DNA from: Candidatus Agathobaculum pullistercoris
GTDB taxonomy: Bacteria; Bacillota; Clostridia; Oscillospirales; Butyricicoccaceae
Reading direction: 5' to 3'
Assembly (NCBI GenBank): GCA_019114345.1
Contig: DXFS01000084.1
Span: 1 to 61,785 of the forward strand
Length of the DNA: 61,785 nucleotides
Part shown: positions 34,829 to 61,785 of the stretch, one piece after another
How positions within the stretch are numbered: position 1 is the stretch's first letter
Layout of the letters: every line of letters begins with the position of its first letter
The notes under the pieces: model-generated
What the model was told of the DNA's origin: nothing
Seen by the model: only the letters and a program-made list of their open reading frames with translations
Database searches by the model: none
Position numbers and translations under genes: made by a program

Positions 34829-35374
34829 ATGATGGATATGCGGGAAAAACAGCTTTCTTATGAATATTTTTTTGAGGGACATATTATGAAGGCCCGGCTC
34901 GACCAGGCTCTTCTGCCGAACGGGAAAACCGCGCCGCGCGAGGTATGCGAGCATGTTGGCGGCGTGGGCGTGCTGCCCATCGACCGGGACGGCAACATCA
35001 TCCTGGTGCGCCAGTTCCGCTACCCGTACGCTGAAGAGATCCTGGAGATCCCGGCAGGCAAGCTGGACCACGGCGAGGGGGAGAGCATTGCGGACTGCGG
35101 TGCGCGCGAACTGAAGGAAGAAACCGGCTGTACGGCCGGGCGCATCGTGCCGCTGGGGAGTGTCTATCCTTCGCCGGGTTTCCTGACCGATGTCGTGCAC
35201 CTGTTCGCTGCGCTTGACTTGGCCGAGGGCGAAATGCAGCCGGATGAGGATGAGTTTGTCGAGGTTGTGCGCCTGCCCATCGCAGAGGTGGAGCAGATGA
35301 TTGTGCGCGATGAGATCCGGGATGCGAAAACCATGGCCGCCCTGTACCGCGCAAAGCTGAAGGGCCTTTATTGA
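34829..35374 (+). CDS. Nudix hydrolase, ADP-ribose pyrophosphatase type
   Basis: The 181-aa protein has a complete Nudix box: GKLDHGEGESIADCGARELK followed by EETG. The preceding EILEIPAG and following YPSPGFLTDVVHLF match the NudF/ADP-ribose pyrophosphatase group. It cleaves ADP-ribose or related nucleotides to AMP. ATG at 34829 lies 6 nt after AAGGAGG. Position before walR, with a 41-bp gap, suggests read-through into the wal cluster. Confidence 0.92.
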   Translation: MMDMREKQLSYEYFFEGHIMKARLDQALLPNGKTAPREVCEHVGGVGVLPIDRDGNIILVRQFRYPYAEEILEIPAGKLDHGEGESIADCGARELKEETGCTAGRIVPLGSVYPSPGFLTDVVHLFAALDLAEGEMQPDEDEFVEVVRLPIAEVEQMIVRDEIRDAKTMAALYRAKLKGLY

Positions 35375-35415
35375 TAAACGGTTTCCGGTCATCCACCTTT
35401 GAGAAGGAGGAAACT

Positions 35416-36111
35416 ATGGATAAGAAAAAGATCCTTGTGATAGAGGATGAGAAAGCGATCGCGGATATTCTGGTGTTCAACCTGCAGCGCGAGGGCTACG
35501 ATACGCTCGTCGCCTACGACGGCACGGAGGGCCTGCGCTGTGCGCTGGAGGAAGCGCCCGACCTGATTCTGCTGGACGTCATGCTGCCCGGCATGGACGG
35601 GTTTGAGGTGCTGGGGCACATCCGCGAGAAACATGACACCCCGATCATTATGCTGACCGCCCGCGAGGAGGAGACGGACAAGGTGCTCGGCCTTGAGCTT
35701 GGAGCAGATGACTATATCACCAAACCGTTCTCCATGCGTGAACTGATGGCCCGTGTCAAAGCCAACATGCGGCGCACTCTTTCGGGAGAGGAGCGGGCAA
35801 AGCCTGCGGTGCCGTCCGGCGGCGGGCTGCGCATCTCGCGGGATAACGGTATGGTATATAAAAACGGACGCGCGCTCGAACTGTCTGCCCGTGAGTTTGA
35901 TATCTTGTGCTACCTGTCCGCCTCGCCCGGACATGTATTTTCGCGCGAGGAACTGATGGAGCATGTCTGGGGATATGAGTATTACGGGGATCTGCGCGCA
36001 GTGGATGTTGCGATCCGGCGCTTGCGCGAAAAGGTCGAGGACCAGCCGGCCAGCCCGCGTTACATCATGACAAAGCGGGGAATGGGATACTACTTTGCCA
36101 GCGAGGGCTGA
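35416..36111 (+). CDS. walR: OmpR-family response regulator WalR/PhoB-like
   Basis: The 231-aa protein has a receiver domain with acidic pocket EDE, acceptor Asp54 (LLDVMLPGMDG) and the switch Lys in KPFS. A winged HTH follows (YLSASPGHVFSREELMEHVW, RAVDVAIRRLREKVED). Context defines it as WalR: downstream are a WalK-like kinase, YycH- and YycI-like proteins, WalJ and RlmH. WalR controls cell-wall hydrolase genes. ATG at 35416 follows AAGGAGG. A 357-bp hairpin array separates it from walK. Confidence 0.88.
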   Translation: MDKKKILVIEDEKAIADILVFNLQREGYDTLVAYDGTEGLRCALEEAPDLILLDVMLPGMDGFEVLGHIREKHDTPIIMLTAREEETDKVLGLELGADDYITKPFSMRELMARVKANMRRTLSGEERAKPAVPSGGGLRISRDNGMVYKNGRALELSAREFDILCYLSASPGHVFSREELMEHVWGYEYYGDLRAVDVAIRRLREKVEDQPASPRYIMTKRGMGYYFASEG

Positions 36112-36460
36112 CGCCCTGCGCCGGCCTATAGGGGGAATCCGATTCCCCCTATATACGCGGACAAGTTCCGTAGAAACTTGCCCGCGATATCCCCTGGACG
36201 CGGCCCAGGGCCGCTGGGTCGGGGTATGCCAAAACCCGGCAAAGCCGGGCTTTGGCATGAAAATCGCAGGGCGATTTTCCGAACTAATCCGCGCATCGCG
36301 CGCAATTTCATCAAAACCCGCGGCGTGCACGTAGGTTTTGATACGGGGAAGCGGTTTTGTGTCCGCTCGCGGCGCGTAAAAAGCGCGCCCTGGCTTTGTT
36401 CGCGTGCCATGCGGCAAAGCCTCCTGTTTGAAACCGCGGTTTCAAACAAAGCCTTTTGGA
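36112..36460. repeat. Intergenic hairpin array A between walR and walK
   Basis: This gap holds no gene but at least ten successive inverted repeats. Clear ones: TATAGGGGGAATC with its mirror (36127-36153, 13-bp arms); GCGGACAAGTT with a near match (36157-36185); GCGGCC/GGCCGC; ATGCCAAAA around CCCGGCAAAGCCGGG (36226-36258); GAAAATCGC/GCGATTTTC (36259-36279); TCAAAACC/GGTTTTGA (36311-36341); GGCGCG/GCGCGCC; GGCTTTG/CAAAGCC; and an 11-bp-arm perfect palindrome at 36426-36447. The first ~150 bp match array B at 41857. The array ends at the walK ribosome site TTTGGAGG. Confidence 0.88.
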
Positions 36461-36468
36461 GGTGTCAA

Positions 36469-38244
36469 ATGTTTCGGTCCTTGCACATGAAGCTGGTGCT
36501 GATCCTGGTGCTTATGATCATTTCGGTCATGGCCGTGGTCGGCACGTTCCTGATCAACAGTGTAAGCACGTTCTACCTGGATAGTTTTTATGAGCAGATG
36601 CAGAGCGTGTTCACAACGGATACCATCCTTTCCATGGAGGAGGCTGCTGCGGAGAACGGCGCGGACGGCCTGCTGACGATTATCGACGCGCATCGCAGCC
36701 GGCTGGGTATTGATGATTACCGCAACTATTATATCCTGGACGGCCAGGGCCGTTTTCTGGATGGCTCAAACCCGAATATTACGCTGACACGGACAAGCAA
36801 TATCGTCTCGGCTATGGCCGGGGAAGCCGGTATGCGCTCCTCTGTGTCGGACAGTATGATGGATGTCGCGGTGCCGGTCGATATGGACGGGAACGATGTG
36901 GTGGACTATATTGTGTACATTGCAGATGACAAGCAGGAGATTTCCGACCTGTCGTGGCGCTTTTTCCAGATTGTCATGCAGGCCATGATGTTCGGGCTTC
37001 TTGCGGCGATCCTGCTGTCCTTCCTGCTGTCCAAGACCATTACTACGCCTATTGAGCGCATTACCGAGGGCGCCAAGTCGATTGCGGAAGGCAATTTTGA
37101 CCAGGATCTCGGCGTGCAGTCATCGGACGAGATCGGCGAATTGACACGTTCCTTTAATTATATGGCGCGGCGGCTCAAGAGTACGGTCGGTGAAGTGCAG
37201 GGCGAAAGGGACAAGTTGAATACGCTCTTCCTGCACATGACGGATGGTGTAGCCGCATTTACGACCGAAGGCAAGCTGATCCATATGAACCCTGCGACCG
37301 AGAACCTGCTTGGTGTACGCATGGAGGACGGACTGTCCTTTGACGAGATGTTTGCCGATCTGGACATGCCGAATTCGGATGAGACTGCTATGCGTACTTT
37401 CCTGACCAGCGAAATCACGCGTTTCGGGCGCGTGCTGTCGGTCACGCTGGCGCCGTACGGTGCGCTGGATGGCGAAGGCGGCGTGATTGCGGTTATCCAC
37501 GATATCACCGAACAGCGCCGCCTGGATGACGCGCGCCGTGAATTCGTGGCCAATGTGTCGCATGAGCTGCGTACGCCGCTGACCAATATCCGTTCCTATA
37601 CCGAAACACTGCTGGATGCGGCGGGCGATATCCCGCTCGATACCGAAAAGCAGTTCCTCGGCGTCATTTCAAGCGAGTCCGAGCGCATGGCGCGCATCGT
37701 GACCGACCTGCTCACGCTTTCCAAGCTGGATTACGGCCGCATGGAACTGCGTATGACGCGTTTCTCGCTGGCCGATATGCTGCGCAATGTCGCCAATGCC
37801 ATGAAGCTGACTGCGCAGGACAGCGGGCATGAACTCCAGGTCGATACACCGGATGACCTGCCCGCGATTGTGGGCGACCGGGAACGGATTGAACAGGTTG
37901 TGGTCAACATCCTGTCCAACGCGGTCAAATATACCCCGGCGGGCGGCCACATCCGTCTGGCTGCATGCACCGTGCCGAACAACCGTGTGCGCATTACAGT
38001 GGAGGACGACGGCGTCGGCATCCCGGCGTCCGACGTGCCGCGCCTGTTTGAACGCTTCTACCGTGTGGACAAGGCCAGAAGCCGCGCTGCAGGCGGCACG
38101 GGACTCGGCCTTGCGATCGCCAAAGAGATCGTTGAGCAGCATGAGGGCAAGATCGCCCTTGCCAGTGAGTACGGCAAGGGGACGACGGTCACCATCACCC
38201 TGCCGACCGACCTGACCCCGAACCGTGAGGAGGGGCTGGCATGA
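36469..38244 (+). CDS. walK: WalK-like sensor histidine kinase
   Basis: The 591-aa protein has membrane helix 1 (residues ~8-28), an extracellular domain of ~140 residues, helix 2 (~168-188), HAMP (SKTITTPIERITEGAKSIAEGN), PAS (~250-355), HisKA with His365 (FVANVSHELRTPLTN) and HATPase (NILSNAVKYTPAGG, DDGVGIP, GGTGLGLAIAKEI). This is the WalK domain order. ATG at 36469 is 6 nt after TTTTGGAGG; the frame stays open upstream through the hairpin array, but that is chance. The stop codon overlaps the next start (ATGA). Confidence 0.92.
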   Translation: MFRSLHMKLVLILVLMIISVMAVVGTFLINSVSTFYLDSFYEQMQSVFTTDTILSMEEAAAENGADGLLTIIDAHRSRLGIDDYRNYYILDGQGRFLDGSNPNITLTRTSNIVSAMAGEAGMRSSVSDSMMDVAVPVDMDGNDVVDYIVYIADDKQEISDLSWRFFQIVMQAMMFGLLAAILLSFLLSKTITTPIERITEGAKSIAEGNFDQDLGVQSSDEIGELTRSFNYMARRLKSTVGEVQGERDKLNTLFLHMTDGVAAFTTEGKLIHMNPATENLLGVRMEDGLSFDEMFADLDMPNSDETAMRTFLTSEITRFGRVLSVTLAPYGALDGEGGVIAVIHDITEQRRLDDARREFVANVSHELRTPLTNIRSYTETLLDAAGDIPLDTEKQFLGVISSESERMARIVTDLLTLSKLDYGRMELRMTRFSLADMLRNVANAMKLTAQDSGHELQVDTPDDLPAIVGDRERIEQVVVNILSNAVKYTPAGGHIRLAACTVPNNRVRITVEDDGVGIPASDVPRLFERFYRVDKARSRAAGGTGLGLAIAKEIVEQHEGKIALASEYGKGTTVTITLPTDLTPNREEGLA

Positions 38245-39557
38245 AGGGTGCACAGCGCTCGGTAAAAAATACCGCAAAAAACATATCGCTGGTTACACTG
38301 GTGCTGCTGCTGGCCGTCCTGTGCGCAGCGAACTGGCTGATTGGTATGAACATAGCGCAGATGCCGGCAGACAATTTGCTGCGGCGGGTATACGACCAGC
38401 TGTTTGGCGGCGCAGTGGGCTATGAACTGCGCTCATCGGGCGTAGCGGCGGCGGAGCCGTCGCAGCTTGCCCTGACCGTAGATGGGCAGCTTTACGGTGT
38501 GCAGTATAATCTGACTGATGTGGAGGCTGGGCTGGCTGCGGTGCAGCCCGTCTGGTCGCAGGCGCTGGCGGGCGGTGCGCTGGAAGAAGCCGGGGAGGAG
38601 GAGCTGGAGGCAGCGCTCTCGTCTGGCGACTGCGCGCTGCTGCGCTATCATGGAAGAATCCCGCTGAGCGTGATAGCGGGCTGGATGGGCGGCAGCTGGG
38701 AAAACGGCGGCAGCCTGGGAGTGAAAAACCTGGTTTACAGTGCGGGGGCAGGGCGCCTGTTTGTTCGCGCATCGGACGGCAATCTTTATGCTGCACCGGC
38801 CCAGGTCGGGGAAAATACGCTTGCCGCTGCGCAGGAAAGCTTCCGCGGCATGCTGTGCGCTTTTGCGGGCGGCGATTACGCGGTTTATCCCGAAACCCTG
38901 CTGTTTGACAGCGAACGGCTCAGCCTGCCGCTGCTTGAGGAAGGCGCGGTGGATCTGTTCGGCACGCAGGGCAGTGCAGGCTTGGAAGGGCTGCTGCAGG
39001 CTTTCGGCTTTACAGCGTATACGGATTTTTACACGGAACAAAATGGTGAGATCCGTGTGTTTGTGGATAACTCCAGCACCTTACGCGTGGGGGCGGGCGG
39101 ACTGCTGCAGTATGCTTCGGCCGGCGGCGACAGTTCGGTGCGCGCCTACGAAGAAGGGGAAGTGCGCGGCCAGTCCGCGCTGGAAGCACAGCTGGACTGT
39201 GCCCGCCTGATCCTGGATGAGGCGCTGCGCGCGGGTGAGACAGACACGCATGCCGCGTTGTATGCTGTGCAGCAGGACGGTGAGGAAACGACGTTGGTTT
39301 TCATGCAGCTTTACGGCGGCGTGCCGGTGCTGGGGGACAGCGACTTCGCTACCTTCCGCTTTGCAGATAACGGCACCCTGACCTCCGCTACCATCCGTCT
39401 GCAGCGCTTTGTGGCAAGCGAAACACGGCGGACCGTCCTGCCTGCAAGGCAGGCAGCTGCCAGCGCCATGGCGGAAGAGCGCAGCATGATGGTGGCTTAC
39501 CGCGCAGAGGACGGAACTTATATACCCGCGCGGTTCTATCTGCAGCAAGAAAGCTGA
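38241..39557 (+). CDS. yycH: YycH-like WalK accessory protein
   Basis: The 438-aa protein has one N-terminal membrane helix (residues ~14-35) and a long extracytoplasmic part. Its sequence is weakly conserved. It is named by position (overlapping walK by 4 nt, before a YycI-like gene) and by topology, which match YycH. In Bacillus, YycH and YycI bind WalK in the membrane and limit its activity. The C-terminal ~200 residues contain a repeat-like domain (FMQLYGGVPVLGDSDFATF) similar in style to the YycI fold. Confidence 0.7.
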   Translation: MKGAQRSVKNTAKNISLVTLVLLLAVLCAANWLIGMNIAQMPADNLLRRVYDQLFGGAVGYELRSSGVAAAEPSQLALTVDGQLYGVQYNLTDVEAGLAAVQPVWSQALAGGALEEAGEEELEAALSSGDCALLRYHGRIPLSVIAGWMGGSWENGGSLGVKNLVYSAGAGRLFVRASDGNLYAAPAQVGENTLAAAQESFRGMLCAFAGGDYAVYPETLLFDSERLSLPLLEEGAVDLFGTQGSAGLEGLLQAFGFTAYTDFYTEQNGEIRVFVDNSSTLRVGAGGLLQYASAGGDSSVRAYEEGEVRGQSALEAQLDCARLILDEALRAGETDTHAALYAVQQDGEETTLVFMQLYGGVPVLGDSDFATFRFADNGTLTSATIRLQRFVASETRRTVLPARQAAASAMAEERSMMVAYRAEDGTYIPARFYLQQES

Positions 39558-39573
39558 TGGGAGGTGAGTCCGC

Positions 39574-40398
39574 ATGCAGTGGGATAAGGTTAAAAATGTG
39601 CTGATCGTGATTTTGGCAGCGGTCAACCTGTTTTTGCTGGGCAATCTGGGAGCGCGCCTCTGGCAGAATATGCAGCGGGAGGCCGAACTGGACAGCAGCC
39701 TGCGCACGCTGGCACAGGGATACGGCCTGACACTGGATGAGGATTTTAAACTGCCGGACGACAAGGAACTGCCTGAGCTTTCGGTGGACCGGAGCCGGCA
39801 GGATGAGGAAGCGGTCGCTGCTGCTGCTTTGGGAGACGAAATGGAGCGGGCCGAACGGGAAGACGGAACGGTGATTTTTGAAAGCAGCCGCGGGAGCATA
39901 GAGTGGTATGCAGACGGGCGCGTGCAGGGTAGCTTTACAACCGAAGAGGGGATGCCGGAGAATGAGGAAGCTGCTTTGCGGGTGGCGCGCAGGCTGTTTG
40001 CAGACTGGCGACTGCAGACCGATGATGCACGGACAGCGGCGGACGGCATGACGGTGACGTTGTCCGGAACGGTTGCCGGCCTGCCGGTGTTCAACCGTAC
40101 GATATCTGTCCGGTTTGACGCGGAAAACCATGTGGCGCTGTCTGGCCTGTGGAGCTTCGGCATACCGTATACAACAGTCAGCGGGAGCGGGGTTTCCTGC
40201 AATGCGGCGGATGCGCTGCTGGAATTTATCTCAAGACGTTCGGCGGCGGAAACCGTGTTGTCCATGGAGGTGGGATACCGTATGCAGCTGGACAGCAGCC
40301 GGCGCCTGCAACTTACACCAACTTGGAAGATCGTCACCGATTCGGGTGAATATTTGGTGGATTGTGACAAAAAGACGATCATAGACCAGGAAAATTGA
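39574..40398 (+). CDS. yycI: YycI-like two-component regulatory protein
   Basis: The 274-aa protein begins MQWDKVKNVLIVILAAVNLFLL, given here as the cytoplasmic MQWDKVKN plus helix, the hallmark of YycI. The extracellular part ends in a domain with DSSRRLQLTPTWKIVTDSGE and YLVDCDKKTI, as in the YycI domain. It should sit with YycH and WalK in one membrane complex. ATG follows GGGAGGTGAG, 16 bp after the previous stop. Confidence 0.82.
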   Translation: MQWDKVKNVLIVILAAVNLFLLGNLGARLWQNMQREAELDSSLRTLAQGYGLTLDEDFKLPDDKELPELSVDRSRQDEEAVAAAALGDEMERAEREDGTVIFESSRGSIEWYADGRVQGSFTTEEGMPENEEAALRVARRLFADWRLQTDDARTAADGMTVTLSGTVAGLPVFNRTISVRFDAENHVALSGLWSFGIPYTTVSGSGVSCNAADALLEFISRRSAAETVLSMEVGYRMQLDSSRRLQLTPTWKIVTDSGEYLVDCDKKTIIDQEN

Positions 40399-40555
40399 AA
40401 AATTGCTTTCCTTTATCAGAAATTGTGGTAAAATATATTGGTGAGAATTTTTGCGGATGCACCTTGCGGCATTCCTGTTCATACATTTATATTGTGTTGG
40501 ATTGTCAAACAGGGCGCGGTCGGCCGCGCAGAATAATAGTGAGGAGTAGGTAGGT

Positions 40556-41851
40556 TTGACCAAGTATGTCATAAACGGCGGTAAGACGCTCAACGGCGAG
40601 GTTACGATTTCAGGGGCGAAAAACGCAGCGGTCGCCATCGTCCCGGCAGCCTTGCTGGCGGACGGCCCGGTCCGCATCGAGAATGTACCCAAGATTATCG
40701 ATGTGACCCTCCAGCTTGAGATCATGCGCGAGCTGGGCGCGCAGATCCGCCTCGTCAATGCGACGACGGTCGAGATCCAGAATGCAAGCCATCCGAGCCT
40801 GAAGCCGCACGAGCTGGAGCGCAAGCTGCGCGCCTCCTATTATCTGCTCGGCGTGCTGCTCGGCAAATACGGCTTTGCCGAGGTCGCCATGCCCGGCGGC
40901 TGCAACTTCGGCGGCGTGCGCCCGATCGACCAGCACATCAAGGGCTTTGAGGCGCTCGGGGCAACCGTTACCCTGCCCAAGGGCGGTTATATCCGCGCGG
41001 AGGCGCCCGAGGACGGGCTGCACGGCGCGCATATCTACTTTGACGTGGTATCGGTCGGCGCGACCATGAACATCATGCTCGCCGCGGTGCTCGCCAAGGG
41101 CCAGACCATTATGGAAAACTGCGCCAAGGAGCCGCATATCGTGGACCTGGCGAACTTCTTGAACGCGATGGGGGCAAACGTTAAGGGAGCGGGCACGGAT
41201 GTAATCAAGATCCGCGGCGTCGAGCGCCTGCACGGCGGCAGCTACTCCATCATTCCGGACCAGATTGAGGCGGGCACCTTTATGGCTGCGGTCGCAGCCT
41301 GCGGCGGCTCGGTGCTGGTTAAGAACGTCATCCCCAAACATCTGGAGTGCATCACGGCAAAGCTCAAGGAGATGAACGTCGAGGTGACCGAGTTTGATGA
41401 CTCGGTGCTGGTGCGCCGCGAGGGGCGGCTGACCCGGACCAATATCAAGACCATGCCGTATCCCGGCTTCCCGACCGACATGCAGCCCCAGATGACGACC
41501 GCGCTCTGCCTGGCAGAGGGTACGAGCATCGTCACCGAGGGCGTGTGGGACAGCCGTTACCGCTATACCGAGGAGCTGGCGCGCATGGGTGCGAATATCC
41601 ATGTGGACGGCAAGATCGCCATCATCGAGGGCGTGGAGGAATTCAAGGGCGCGCCGGTGCGTGCGCACGACCTGCGCGCAGGCGCGGCGATGGTCATTGC
41701 GGGCCTGGCCGCCAAGGGTGTGACCGAGGTCGAGCAGGTGCAGAACATCGAGCGCGGATATGAGACGCTGGTCGAGAAATTCGTGGCGCTTGGAGCGGAT
41801 ATGTACCGTTCGGAGATCCCGGACTCGATGGGGATGGCACAGCGCGCGTAA
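40556..41851 (+). CDS. murA: UDP-N-acetylglucosamine 1-carboxyvinyltransferase
   Basis: The 431-aa protein is MurA, which transfers enolpyruvate to UDP-GlcNAc in the first committed step of peptidoglycan synthesis. Marks: INGGKTLNGEVTISGAKNAA at the start, the fosfomycin-target Cys116 in PGGCNFGGVRPIDQHIKGFE, and PYPGFPTDMQPQM. The loop reads C-x-x-G-x-x-R-P, one residue longer than the usual C-x-x-G-x-R-P. The start is TTG at 40556, fixed by the conserved N-terminus and GAGGAG upstream. Its presence inside the wal cluster is unusual compared with Bacillus. Confidence 0.95.
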   Translation: MTKYVINGGKTLNGEVTISGAKNAAVAIVPAALLADGPVRIENVPKIIDVTLQLEIMRELGAQIRLVNATTVEIQNASHPSLKPHELERKLRASYYLLGVLLGKYGFAEVAMPGGCNFGGVRPIDQHIKGFEALGATVTLPKGGYIRAEAPEDGLHGAHIYFDVVSVGATMNIMLAAVLAKGQTIMENCAKEPHIVDLANFLNAMGANVKGAGTDVIKIRGVERLHGGSYSIIPDQIEAGTFMAAVAACGGSVLVKNVIPKHLECITAKLKEMNVEVTEFDDSVLVRREGRLTRTNIKTMPYPGFPTDMQPQMTTALCLAEGTSIVTEGVWDSRYRYTEELARMGANIHVDGKIAIIEGVEEFKGAPVRAHDLRAGAAMVIAGLAAKGVTEVEQVQNIERGYETLVEKFVALGADMYRSEIPDSMGMAQRA

Positions 41852-41856
41852 ACAGG

Positions 41857-42148
41857 TATAGGGGGAATCTGATTCCCCCTATATACGCGGACAAGTTCCG
41901 AAGAAACTTGTCCGCGATACCCCCTGGACGCCGCCCAGGGCGGCTGGGTCGGGGTATCCAAAAGCCCGGCAAAGCGGGGCTTTTGGATGCAAACGGCAGG
42001 GCCGTTTGCGGATTTGACGATCGCGCGAAGCGCGATCCGCTGCGGCGGGCCGAAAGCTCGCCGTCTGTACGACGGCTGCTTTGCGGATTGCCGCTGCAGG
42101 CAGCGGCGTATTTGCATGGCCGCGAACATGGTTCGCGGCTTTTTTTCT
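41857..42148. repeat. Intergenic hairpin array B between murA and walJ
   Basis: Consecutive inverted repeats fill the gap: TATAGGGGGAATC with its mirror (41857-41883), GCGGACAAGTT/AACTTGTCCGC (perfect), GCCGCC/GGGCGGC, ATCCAAAAG around CCCGGCAAAGCGGGG, GCAAACG around GCAGGGC, GATCGCGC/GCGCGATC, CGGCGGGC/GCTCGCCG, CCGTC/GACGG, GCCGCTGC/GCAGCGGC and finally GCCGCGAAC/GTTCGCGGC followed by seven T. The first ~150 bp align without gaps to array A (offset 5730). The last hairpin is a terminator in form, placed before the walJ ribosome site. Confidence 0.88.
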
Positions 42149-42165: not shown

Positions 42166-42978
42166 GTGGCGGAACGGTTTTATTACAGCATTGCAAGCGG
42201 CTCGTCGGGTAACTGCGGCCTGTATATGGCGGAGGGTACTGCGATTTTGATTGATCTCGGCGTCTCCCTGCGCAAGATCACGACTGCATTGACCGCGCTC
42301 GGCCTCGGGCTGGACGACCTTTCCGCTGTACTGCTCACGCATGAGCATATCGACCACGTCAAAGGGTTGCCGATGTTTCTCAAAAAAAGCCGCGTGCCGG
42401 TGTTCGCCTCGCGCGGCACGGCGGAGGCGCTCGAGGAGAAGGAGCCGCTCTGCGCGGACCGCTTGAATGTGTTTGACAGCGGTGAGCGCTTCTGGGTGCG
42501 CGACGTGGATGTGACCTCGTTTGCCACGCCGCACGATGCAGCCGAGAGCGTAGGCTACATACTCGAACAGGGCGGCAGCCGGTTCGGCTTTGCGACCGAC
42601 CTCGGCTTTGTGCCGCGCGACGCGGCGGAGTGCCTGCGCGGCTGCGAGGCGGTCGTGCTCGAGAGCAACCACGACCCGCACATGCTGCAGGTGGGGCCGT
42701 ACCCCTACCCGCTCAAGATGCGTGTGGCGGGGCCGGCGGGACATCTGTCCAACCCGGACTGTGCGGTGTTTGCGGCGGATCTGGTCAAAAACGGCGCGCG
42801 CACGATCATTCTGGCGCATCTGAGCGAAAAGAACAACATCCCGGTGCTGGCACTCCAGCAGACCAAGGCTGCGCTGCGCGGCCTGCCTGCGTGCGAGGTG
42901 ATCGTCGCCCCGCGTGAGCGTATGGAGCAGCCGGTGGCTTTCGGCGAGGAGGCGGTTTCGTGCTCTCTGTCCGGCTGA
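42166..42978 (+). CDS. walJ: WalJ/YycJ-type metallo-beta-lactamase-fold hydrolase
   Basis: The 270-aa protein has the metal motif THEHIDH and downstream ligands in GFATDLG and AHLSEKNN, as in the YycJ/WalJ group. WalJ is linked to the wal operon and to coordination of cell division with DNA replication in Firmicutes; its chemical substrate is not settled. The start is GTG at 42166 after ATGGAGG. It overlaps rlmH by 19 nt. Confidence 0.9.
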   Translation: MAERFYYSIASGSSGNCGLYMAEGTAILIDLGVSLRKITTALTALGLGLDDLSAVLLTHEHIDHVKGLPMFLKKSRVPVFASRGTAEALEEKEPLCADRLNVFDSGERFWVRDVDVTSFATPHDAAESVGYILEQGGSRFGFATDLGFVPRDAAECLRGCEAVVLESNHDPHMLQVGPYPYPLKMRVAGPAGHLSNPDCAVFAADLVKNGARTIILAHLSEKNNIPVLALQQTKAALRGLPACEVIVAPRERMEQPVAFGEEAVSCSLSG

Positions 42979-46434: not shown

Positions 46435-47181
46435 TTACAGTGCTGCAAGCCCGGGGAAAAACCGCGACAGAAAGAAAAACACCACAGGCAGGAAGATCGC
46501 AGGCAGCAGGTTGCCGACCTTGACCTTTTTGTCGAACATCAGGTTAAAGCCGATGGCGAAGATCAGCACCGAGCCGATGCAGGAGAGCTGGCTGATCAGC
46601 GCATCGGTCAGCCAGGGGCGGATGAACCGCGCGAGCAGCGTGATGCCGCCCTGATATACGAACAGCGGCAGCACGGACAGGTATACGCCCTTGCCGAGCG
46701 AGGCCGCGAACACGATGGCGGCCACGCCGTCCAGCACGGCTTTTGCGATCAGGATGGATGGATTTCCGTTTAACCCGTCCTCGAGCGAGCCGACGATCGC
46801 CATCGCGCCCACGCAGAACAGCAGGGAGGAGGCCACAAAGCCCTCGACGAACTTGCCGTCCTCGCCGCCGCCCGCAAAACGGGTCTGGCACCATGTCCCG
46901 AAGTCGTTGAGGCGGGTCTCGATATCGAGCGCCTCGCCGATCAGCGCGCCGATGACCAGACTGAGCACCAGCAGCATGGTGTGCTGGGTGGAGAGTGCGC
47001 CGTCCTCGATGGTCACCAGCCCGGCGACCGCGCCGCCGATGCCGATGAAGAACGTGCACAGGCCGAGCGCCTGCATGATGGTGGTTTCAAAACGCCGCGG
47101 CAGCCCGCCCTTGAGGAAAACGCCGAGCGTAGTGCCCGCGATGACGGTGCCGCAGTTGACAATGGTTCCCAGTCCGATCAT
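46435..47181 (-). CDS. DUF554 family membrane protein (YdfK-like)
   Basis: The 248-aa protein has seven or so hydrophobic helices and DUF554 marks: GTIVNCGTVIAGTTLGVFLK at the N-terminus, QALGLCTFFIGIGGA and GSLEDGLNGNPSILIAKAVLDG, in parts. The family is thought to be a small-molecule transporter but has no proven role. Monocistronic, minus strand, with its stop against the shared terminator. Confidence 0.87.
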   Translation of the reverse strand: MIGLGTIVNCGTVIAGTTLGVFLKGGLPRRFETTIMQALGLCTFFIGIGGAVAGLVTIEDGALSTQHTMLLVLSLVIGALIGEALDIETRLNDFGTWCQTRFAGGGEDGKFVEGFVASSLLFCVGAMAIVGSLEDGLNGNPSILIAKAVLDGVAAIVFAASLGKGVYLSVLPLFVYQGGITLLARFIRPWLTDALISQLSCIGSVLIFAIGFNLMFDKKVKVGNLLPAIFLPVVFFFLSRFFPGLAAL

Positions 47182-61571: not shown

Positions 61572-61785
61572 CAAGGCCGCACACATCGGGGCGTTAGCGG
61601 TGCCCTGCACCCGCAATCCGCTGCAGCGGGGATGATGCGGGCAAGGAGGGACGCACGCGCGGCGAGGCAGCCGCCCACAGGGCGATGAGAGACCGGTACT
61701 GCGCAACGGAGGACTGTGAACCATGTCAGGCGGGGAACCGAGCAGCATTAAGCAGAAACCATCGTGTGCCGCAGAGCTGCCGATT
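61572..61785 (+). ncRNA. ffs: Signal recognition particle RNA (large Firmicute type), cut by the window end
   Basis: The stretch matches the Bacillus scRNA in order: Alu domain TAGCGGTGCCCTGCACC then CGCAATCCGCT (near 61595-61623), later CTGCGCAACGG, GAACCATGTCAGG and the SRP-core tetraloop GGGGAACCGAGCAGC, then GTGCCGCAGAGCTGCC. The GGAA tetraloop and the GAGCAG bulge are the Ffh-binding elements. The 5' end is approximate and the 3' part continues past the window. Bacillus-type Alu domain supports a Firmicute origin. Confidence 0.88.

Follow-up and report, generated by a model that had tools for sequence, protein, structure and literature searches.

What keeps the two arms of a hairpin complementary when their sequence does not last: selection on a folded RNA, or the way in which the DNA itself is copied? 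The question is raised by two chains of hairpins, called arrays A and B here, that lie between genes in a 61,785-nt stretch of Candidatus Agathobaculum pullistercoris (contig DXFS01000084.1 of assembly GCA_019114345.1; this whole stretch is referred to as the window). The two arrays share loops, and in several hairpins, the arms differ on both sides at once. The original prediction, made from the letters alone, had offered three explanations: an RNA processing signal, a protein binding site or a replicating palindrome family. The last of these fits best, in view of the presence and absence of arrays at orthologous sites and the width of the family. We read the arrays as composite, YPAL/ERIC-like intergenic repeats that lie behind genes, have their stems perfected largely by DNA template switching and exchange modules, and assign a probability of about 0.6 to this reading.

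Arrays A (from position 36127) and B (from 41857) correspond without gaps at an offset of 5730, as had been claimed for about 150 bp: BLASTN gives 90% identity over 146 nt. The hairpins, H1 to H5, were found in the predicted places, and the arms of H4 and H5 indeed change on both sides together. The near-identity claimed for the first three hairpins does not extend to H3, whose arms are also changed on both sides (GCGGCC..GGCCGC in A, GCCGCC..GGCGGC in B). Past ~150 nt, the arrays do diverge, yet their right halves are not unrelated strings. That of A resembles a second kind of array, type II, in antisense. That of B is a third module set, resembling by eye a stretch in loci L252, L254, L273, L278, L286, L287, L289 and L293 among the 56 of 112 copies viewed. 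Compared with shuffled sequences, both arrays fold with high stability (z of -7.4 and -11.0), and none of 100 shuffles each was as stable.

That the arrays form a real family, placed by rule in sense at gene ends, is near certain. The search of the own genome and of relatives proposed in the original prediction yielded further copies. In the own draft genome (2.06 Mb, 77% complete), the DNA of array B finds array A and 12 other loci at E ≤ 1.6e-7. A covariance model of 132 positions, R1, built from 10 own-genome copies, recovers in that genome 10 near-full-length copies at 125 bits or more, four altered ones at 85-96 bits and weaker matches. Among 60 genomes searched at E 1e-3, R1 matched all 25 of the Agathobaculum-like genus, the own included, with 3 to 30 matches each, and one of 12 other genera of the same family, with seven matches; none of the 23 genomes of other families had a match. 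These large searches ran with stricter filters. The one copy viewed from the other genus (L073) has, by eye, the same plan and begins 5 nt behind a stop codon. The raw match lists (84 and 68) contain duplicates and reverse-strand matches; the fetched loci hold 112 distinct copies, which are R1 matches of about 85 bits or more from part of the best matches listed, with weaker copies under-represented. At the gathering score, Rfam places only the signal recognition particle (SRP) RNA in the window and no family on the arrays. Three matches at a relaxed threshold were rejected, all being far below gathering (the best on an array at 24 bits vs. 45). No description of such repeats in this genus was found among open-licence papers.

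A copy measures 130-300 nt and holds 4-10 hairpins. It opens with the H1 palindrome TATAGGGG..CCCCTATA, followed by TA and by H2 with a GTTCC..GAAAC loop; next comes the linker ATACCC..GGGGTAT around H3 (GCCGCCCAAGGCGGC and variants), then H4, H5 and often H6 and more. The loops and linkers are conserved and the arms variable, with 60 distinct 10-nt H2 arm strings among 99 parsed copies. The modular element of the original prediction is thus borne out in many further copies: loops and linkers are fixed, and stems can be interchanged but remain complementary with few exceptions. The subtype of H1 is tied to the linker beyond H2 (AAT in 13/13 copies, TAT in 18/18, CTT in 69/73; 8 of the 112 are unclassed), hence subfamilies exist. 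The inner sequence of H1 and the linker are linked despite the variable H2 arms between them, and no pairing was found that accounts for the three subtypes together. By eye, the H1 5' arm can pair with the linker that follows H2 perfectly in TAT and with one mismatch in AAT but not in CTT, and this pairing was dropped as a general mechanism. As a separate observation by eye, small hairpin repeats, AAGGTGAATTG-hairpin-CAAGAGAGGG and GCCCGTAGGCC.., are inserted in array loops with arms that differ per copy; they are located in L006, L009 (H3), L333 (H1 and H3), L332 (H4) and L011.

The position of the copies is as regular as their plan. Genes were called by codon usage in the loci of the 112 copies; the names used at other loci than those of arrays A and B (rpsJ, rplC, rpmJ, rpmH, rplI, ilvC, pheS and others) are readings of translations, not search results. 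Ninety-seven copies are sense to both called neighbours and 11 to the sole called neighbour. Two are antisense to both, and the last two, called as '<E>>', have rpmH upstream in sense on reading. Sense orientation to the called upstream gene holds in 105 of 107 copies (two by hand correction), and an idea gained from the first copies, that either orientation occurs, is wrong for type I by this count. A sense upstream gene was called for 103 copies. No more than 15 nt separate its stop codon from the start of the copy in 86 of these, and in 11 of the 103 the stop codon overlaps H1. The other 17 lie farther off; by eye, they include copies that follow SRP RNA, rpmJ (not detected by the gene caller), a T-box terminator or another terminator, and one in which H1 is disrupted. 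Also by eye, many of the upstream host genes look like genes for translation or other housekeeping functions. Of the copies in G012, a near-complete genome, the eight above 75 bits are all sense, each behind the end of a gene or RNA. Two of them run against the direction of replication indicated by GC skew over 20 sampled stretches yet are sense to the gene, so that transcription, not replication, goes with orientation there; replication direction as the cause is ruled out for this genome.

Orthologous sites are empty in some genomes and filled in others. Between rpsJ and rplC, six of 20 genomes have type I hairpins (one H1-H2 alone, one degenerate), ten a short spacer and four other sequence. 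At the 3' end of the SRP RNA, 21 genomes divide into eight with type I (one with nested inserts), seven with type II, two with a diverged type-II-like array and four with none. Empty and filled sites, expected of miniature inverted-repeat transposable elements of the YPAL, ERIC and Correia kind, are therefore present at both places. Between the genes that we take to be murA and yycJ, an array stands in two of 17 readable sites, and genomes G007 and G020 add two from the copy list; between the walR-like and walK-like genes, it stands in three of 18, one rearranged. Site clusters common to at least two genomes number 29 and hold 94 of the 112 copies, often with different modules. In the stretches viewed, the GC-rich SRP terminator (GAGGCGGGC..) comes after the array, incomplete in one. 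Arrays in this place, as well as between rpsJ and rplC, are hence expected to be transcribed through. Two further features of the rpsJ/rplC site (L297-L315) were noted. The stretch from the array site to rplC (GTCAACAGG..GCCGTCAACCAATAACC), possibly a structured L3 leader, is strongly conserved genus-wide, and in L308 and L309 (genomes G024 and G011), an unrelated AT-rich repeat, AATTAGGAATTAG..TTACTAATT, takes the place of the array.

The exchange of modules is visible at these sites. One site can hold a type I or a type II 5' half joined to the same H4-H6, and at the murA site, G000 and G007 share H1-H2, with the H4-H5 of G007 resembling those of G013. The type II model, R2, derives from six SRP-site sequences. 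At 75 bits or more, it matches at least 21 of the 25 genus genomes among the matches listed; at E 1e-10, it matches 23 of 25, a count not due to type II alone: the H4 common to both types lets type I copies score up to 52.5 bits against R2. Of 21 type II matches judged by eye, 13 are sense to the upstream gene or RNA, five antisense and three unclear. Array A appears to combine type I in sense with type II in antisense: its right half is, from its sequence, probably a diverged antisense type II module set, a call that rests on the R2 match and on a reading of the hairpins, type I itself cross-matching R2. In some arrays (array A, L249), an H1-type palindrome stands at both outer ends in opposite orientation; many copies have it at just one end.

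How do the arms change? Already within the 10 own-genome copies, and with a structure drawn by hand from array B, 21 of 50 pairs show two-sided changes, vs. a shuffled mean of 12.5 (reached in 0 of 500), and cells with a two-sided change number 66 vs. 20. H2 was parsed in 108 of the 112 copies (all except L031, L072, L034 and L294) by a parser that required at least 8 of 10 Watson-Crick pairs; its 1080 pairs comprise 1062 Watson-Crick, 14 A·C, 2 G·T and 2 other. An earlier count over 99 copies, with two misparsed rows, gave 966, 13, 2 and 9, respectively. Arms that change without their partners, which the original prediction had named as the contrary observation, are scarce: in 137 orthologous comparisons, not independent within one site, 345 differences are two-sided and 23 one-sided. 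Where a single pair is changed, the change is two-sided in 15 of 16 comparisons. The SRP RNA of the same genus provides a control (20 of 21 full-length sequences aligned and folded; L318 was omitted as near-identical to L317). Its 1739 pairs comprise 1493 Watson-Crick, 229 G·T, 2 A·C and 15 other, the A·C count being biased low because RNAalifold, which chose the structure, accepts G·U, and its differences are 1077 two-sided and 1261 one-sided. A real RNA in this genus thus shows wobble pairs and one-sided steps, and H2 hardly does. Likewise, the arms of H1, H2 and H3 and the outer arms of H4 together hold 15 G·T and 53 A·C. The claim that an RNA fold is the conserved thing is not borne out in that form, in view of this shortage of G·T relative to A·C, unlike in SRP RNA, and of the inversion of some loops.

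Of the H3 hairpins, two match the reverse complement of a common form exactly; a third such pair, GCCGCCCCGGGCGGC / GCCGCCCGGGGCGGC, differs by one base and says little. Among the H2 loops, parsed in 100 of the 112 copies, those of L210, L061, L223 and L273 differ by 0, 1, 1 and 2 bases from the loop of another copy when that loop is reverse-complemented, and by 2, 3, 3 and 4 bases from any forward loop. The remaining 96 are nearer a forward loop in 95 cases, with one tie. L223, with its inverted loop, keeps the arms of its ortholog L220 unchanged. Multiple two-sided changes together with inverted loops are what template switching at hairpins predicts, according to the portion of PMC8794818 drawn on here, and the arrays resemble the mutations described there: both sides of a stem change in one step, and loops are inverted. 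The cases in that portion are RNA genes such as rRNA, whereas the arrays are a dispersed intergenic repeat with many arm states per site. Taken together, the few G·T in the H1-H4 arms and the inverted loops point to template switching at the DNA level, and copying of DNA is likely to maintain most of the stems. H5 and the loosely paired parts are without that signature.

We propose that, when DNA is synthesized, one arm of a palindrome serves as the template for its partner, by template switching at quasi-palindromes; the arms would stay complementary mainly because a change in either would soon be passed on to the other. Recombination within the linkers and loops that copies have in common would carry modules from one copy to another, and the family would spread as a non-autonomous repeat with a putative helper enzyme. 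Insertions would survive where coding sequence, ribosome-binding sites and terminators are spared. Once transcribed, the chain of hairpins probably alters the decay or processing of the upstream RNA, by analogy with YPAL and ERIC. This effect is a reasonable guess from these two repeats. A side effect on RNA stability or processing is possible because the arrays sit behind genes in sense.

Several observations weigh against a reading based on template switching. The bias is reversed in H5 (17 G·T, 4 A·C) and in the GAC/GTC stem (16 and 8), and the core of H4 has 54 G·T and 29 A·C. Over all 50 model pairs of the 112 copies, G·T and A·C number 89 and 113. Type II at the SRP site shows 28 two-sided vs. 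38 one-sided differences. The comparison of H2 with SRP RNA is uneven, RNAalifold on one side facing a parser with a Watson-Crick threshold on the other, although that parser does not favour A·C over G·T. Moreover, loops and linkers are better conserved than arms, hence something selects on sequence as well, and this conservation is not explained by template switching alone. No target duplication is visible by eye at rpsJ/rplC, where the flanks have diverged, and neither a helper gene (only Y1_Tnp was searched for) nor a recent transposition was seen. Finally, the recurrence of sites (94/112 copies in 29 clusters) also fits old, vertically kept, useful elements.

The last point leads to the first alternative, a cis-acting structured RNA of the 3' untranslated or intercistronic region, whose fold would be selected, e.g., as an mRNA stabiliser, a processing site or a translation insulator, and which would be kept vertically behind particular genes. 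The strictly sense placement of type I at gene ends agrees with it, as do the conserved loops and linkers, the presence of the array behind SRP RNA before the SRP terminator, the same genes carrying it in several species and the preference of H5 for G·T (17 to 4). It is nevertheless rather unlikely: in the H1-H4 arms, A·C outnumbers G·T (53 vs. 15), as opposed to 2 vs. 229 in SRP RNA, some loops are inverted, many orthologous genes are without an array and no Rfam family lies on the arrays at the gathering score.

The excess of A·C admits another reading, since A·C on the sense strand (53 vs. 15 in H1-H4) is G·T on the other. The element could be a folded single-stranded DNA, possibly the template strand, that is read by a recombinase or transposase via loops and linkers, in the manner of REP/RAYT or attC, and that is inserted where transcripts end. 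In line with this, the loops are fixed but the arms free, the arms mostly hold Watson-Crick pairs only, and nested hairpin repeats have been inserted into loops; the reversed bias of H5 does not fit. Furthermore, Y1_Tnp (PF01797, E 1e-3) had no match in 19 of 23 genus genomes, among them the own (77% complete) and G012, and no other enzyme was searched for. A resident RAYT as mobiliser was rejected on the Y1_Tnp result. Distant BLASTN found no array match in phage and plasmid collections, and a 26-base core pattern had no match in viral contigs, collections from which records near the genome of the window may be left out; a phage or plasmid origin was set aside on these results. On balance, an element read as folded single-stranded DNA seems quite improbable.

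Intrinsic terminators or attenuators in series would fit the arms of several hairpins, A-rich on the 5' and T-rich on the 3' side, and the terminator-like last hairpin of array B with its T run. Such a function is highly improbable, read-through being expected where arrays precede the conserved terminator of the SRP RNA itself or separate rpsJ from rplC. Chance inverted repeats of a GC-rich genome, with nothing but the GC content in their favour, are already refuted by the folding z of -7.4 and -11.0 and by 112 distinct copies that strongly match one model.

Repeats behind genes with template-switched stems, as preferred here, are filed as a variant of the composite intergenic palindromic repeat and as a member of none of YPAL, ERIC, BOX and REP. 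YPAL was reportedly described by De Gregorio in 2006 as inserting just downstream of stop codons. The arrays share this trait, 86 of 103 starting no more than 15 nt after a stop; their co-transcription is inferred from context. The nearest kinds are treated in PMC2229807, PMC3049150, PMC2267715, PMC3733652 and PMC2817692, each taken into account in part. Like YPAL/RU-2, the arrays are short hairpin-forming intergenic repeats, not A+T-rich, with orthologous sites empty or filled (PMC2229807). YPAL is said there to go with upstream transcripts, perhaps affecting their stability. It is, however, one unit of ~168 bp with target duplications of 3-26 bp (PMC2229807), and the likeness is one of description, not of sequence; an array strings together 5-10 interchangeable hairpins whose arms vary, and no target duplication was found. 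ERIC/IRU is likewise palindromic, co-transcribed with its neighbours and of orientation-dependent effect on upstream RNA (PMC2229807). In contrast to the arrays, it is a single 127-bp enterobacterial unit with terminal inverted repeats, target duplication and TA ends, and no stem swapping is reported for it in the portion of PMC2229807 considered. BOX of Streptococcus pneumoniae is also modular (boxA, boxB and boxC), transcribed and structured; it has one sequence model per module, and the part of PMC3049150 considered contains no report of fixed loops with free arms. Finally, REP/BIME elements are likewise intergenic mosaics, made of palindromic units strung together in opposite orientations (PMC2817692). 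REP units measure 20-40 bp and carry a GTAG or CGTC tag (PMC3733652), compared with 130-300 nt for the arrays, in which this tag was not searched for; unlike for REP/RAYT, Y1_Tnp is without a match in most (19/23) genus genomes.

The features of both arrays and the genes around them are collected in Table 1.

Table 1. Hairpins, module sets and neighbouring genes of arrays A and B, in window positions.
Feature	Positions	Strand	Remarks
Gene upstream of array A	35371..36111	+	Response_reg and Trans_reg_C; presumably a WalR/YycF-kind response regulator (name from gene order)
Array A, R1 match	36127-36258		139.9 bits
Array A, H1	36127..36153	+	Palindrome TATAGGGGG..CCCCCTATA; 15 nt past walR-like stop codon
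Array A, H2	36156..36186	+	Variable arms, conserved GTTCC..GAAAC loop; one uncompensated A·C mismatch
Array A, H3	36200..36214	+	GCGGCCCAGGGCCGC within linker ATATCCCC..GGGGTAT
Array A, H4	36226..36258	+	Core CCCGGCAAAGC
Array A, H5	36259..36279	+	Core GCAGGGC
Array A, right half	36311..36452	-	R2 match, 29.8 bits, E 6e-8; hairpins compared by eye
Array A, right-half H1 palindrome	36425-36448		Just before ribosome-binding region of walK-like gene
Gene downstream of array A	36469..38244	+	HAMP, HisKA and HATPase_c on open reading frame 36178-38241; start from codon-usage gene call; presumably a WalK/YycG-kind sensor kinase
Gene upstream of array B	40556..41851	+	EPSP_synthase domain, MurA-like; presumably murA (name from gene order)
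Array B, R1 match	41857-41988		146.4 bits
Array B, H1	41857..41883	+	5 nt past murA stop codon
Array B, H2	41886..41916	+	Perfect 12-bp arms
Array B, H3	41930..41944	+	GCCGCCCAGGGCGGC between ATACCCC..GGGGTAT
Array B, H4	41956..41988	+	Inverted repeat
Array B, H5	41989..42009	+	Inverted repeat
Array B, H6	42019..42037	+	GATCGCGC..GCGCGATC; H6-like hairpin after H5 in many of the 56 of 112 copies viewed
Array B, right half	42038..42146		Third module set: GCGGGCC..GCTCGCC, then two further hairpins
Array B, last hairpin	42119-42139		Followed by T run; terminator-like
Gene downstream of array B	42166..42978	+	Lactamase_B_2; metallo-beta-lactamase fold protein, presumably of the YycJ kind

The MurA of the window is 90% identical to that of Agathobaculum sp. 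SUG777, the closest named relative among the matches listed, and the genus is called Agathobaculum-like on this ground. Elsewhere in the window, a large SRP RNA gene begins at the very end (61577-61785), and the remainder of an SRP RNA, followed by a type II array (L376), is found at an end of contig C85. Two weak matches to the type II model on the + strand (1630-1699 and 46586-46710, 22-23 bits) may be chance hairpins.

A bolder form of the explanation, which we regard as distinctly unlikely, would make the arrays landing sites or bodies of a novel mobile system that recognizes the loops and linkers of folded single-stranded DNA, whatever the arm sequence, and inserts in sense at transcript ends, the stems being re-perfected by template switching. 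If this were true, the family would be a natural, long-running record of template-switch mutation in a bacterial genus. Two-sided changes in a stem are usually taken as proof of a selected RNA fold. Here, they abound in a family whose main stems have the wrong chemistry for RNA and some of whose loops are inverted, with a real RNA alongside as a control. The share of template switching in apparent covariation thereby becomes measurable, and the family warns against calling every covarying repeat an RNA. The placement in sense at gene ends, even between ribosomal protein genes and behind the SRP RNA, furthermore turns the way in which repeats choose, or survive at, transcript ends into a testable question.

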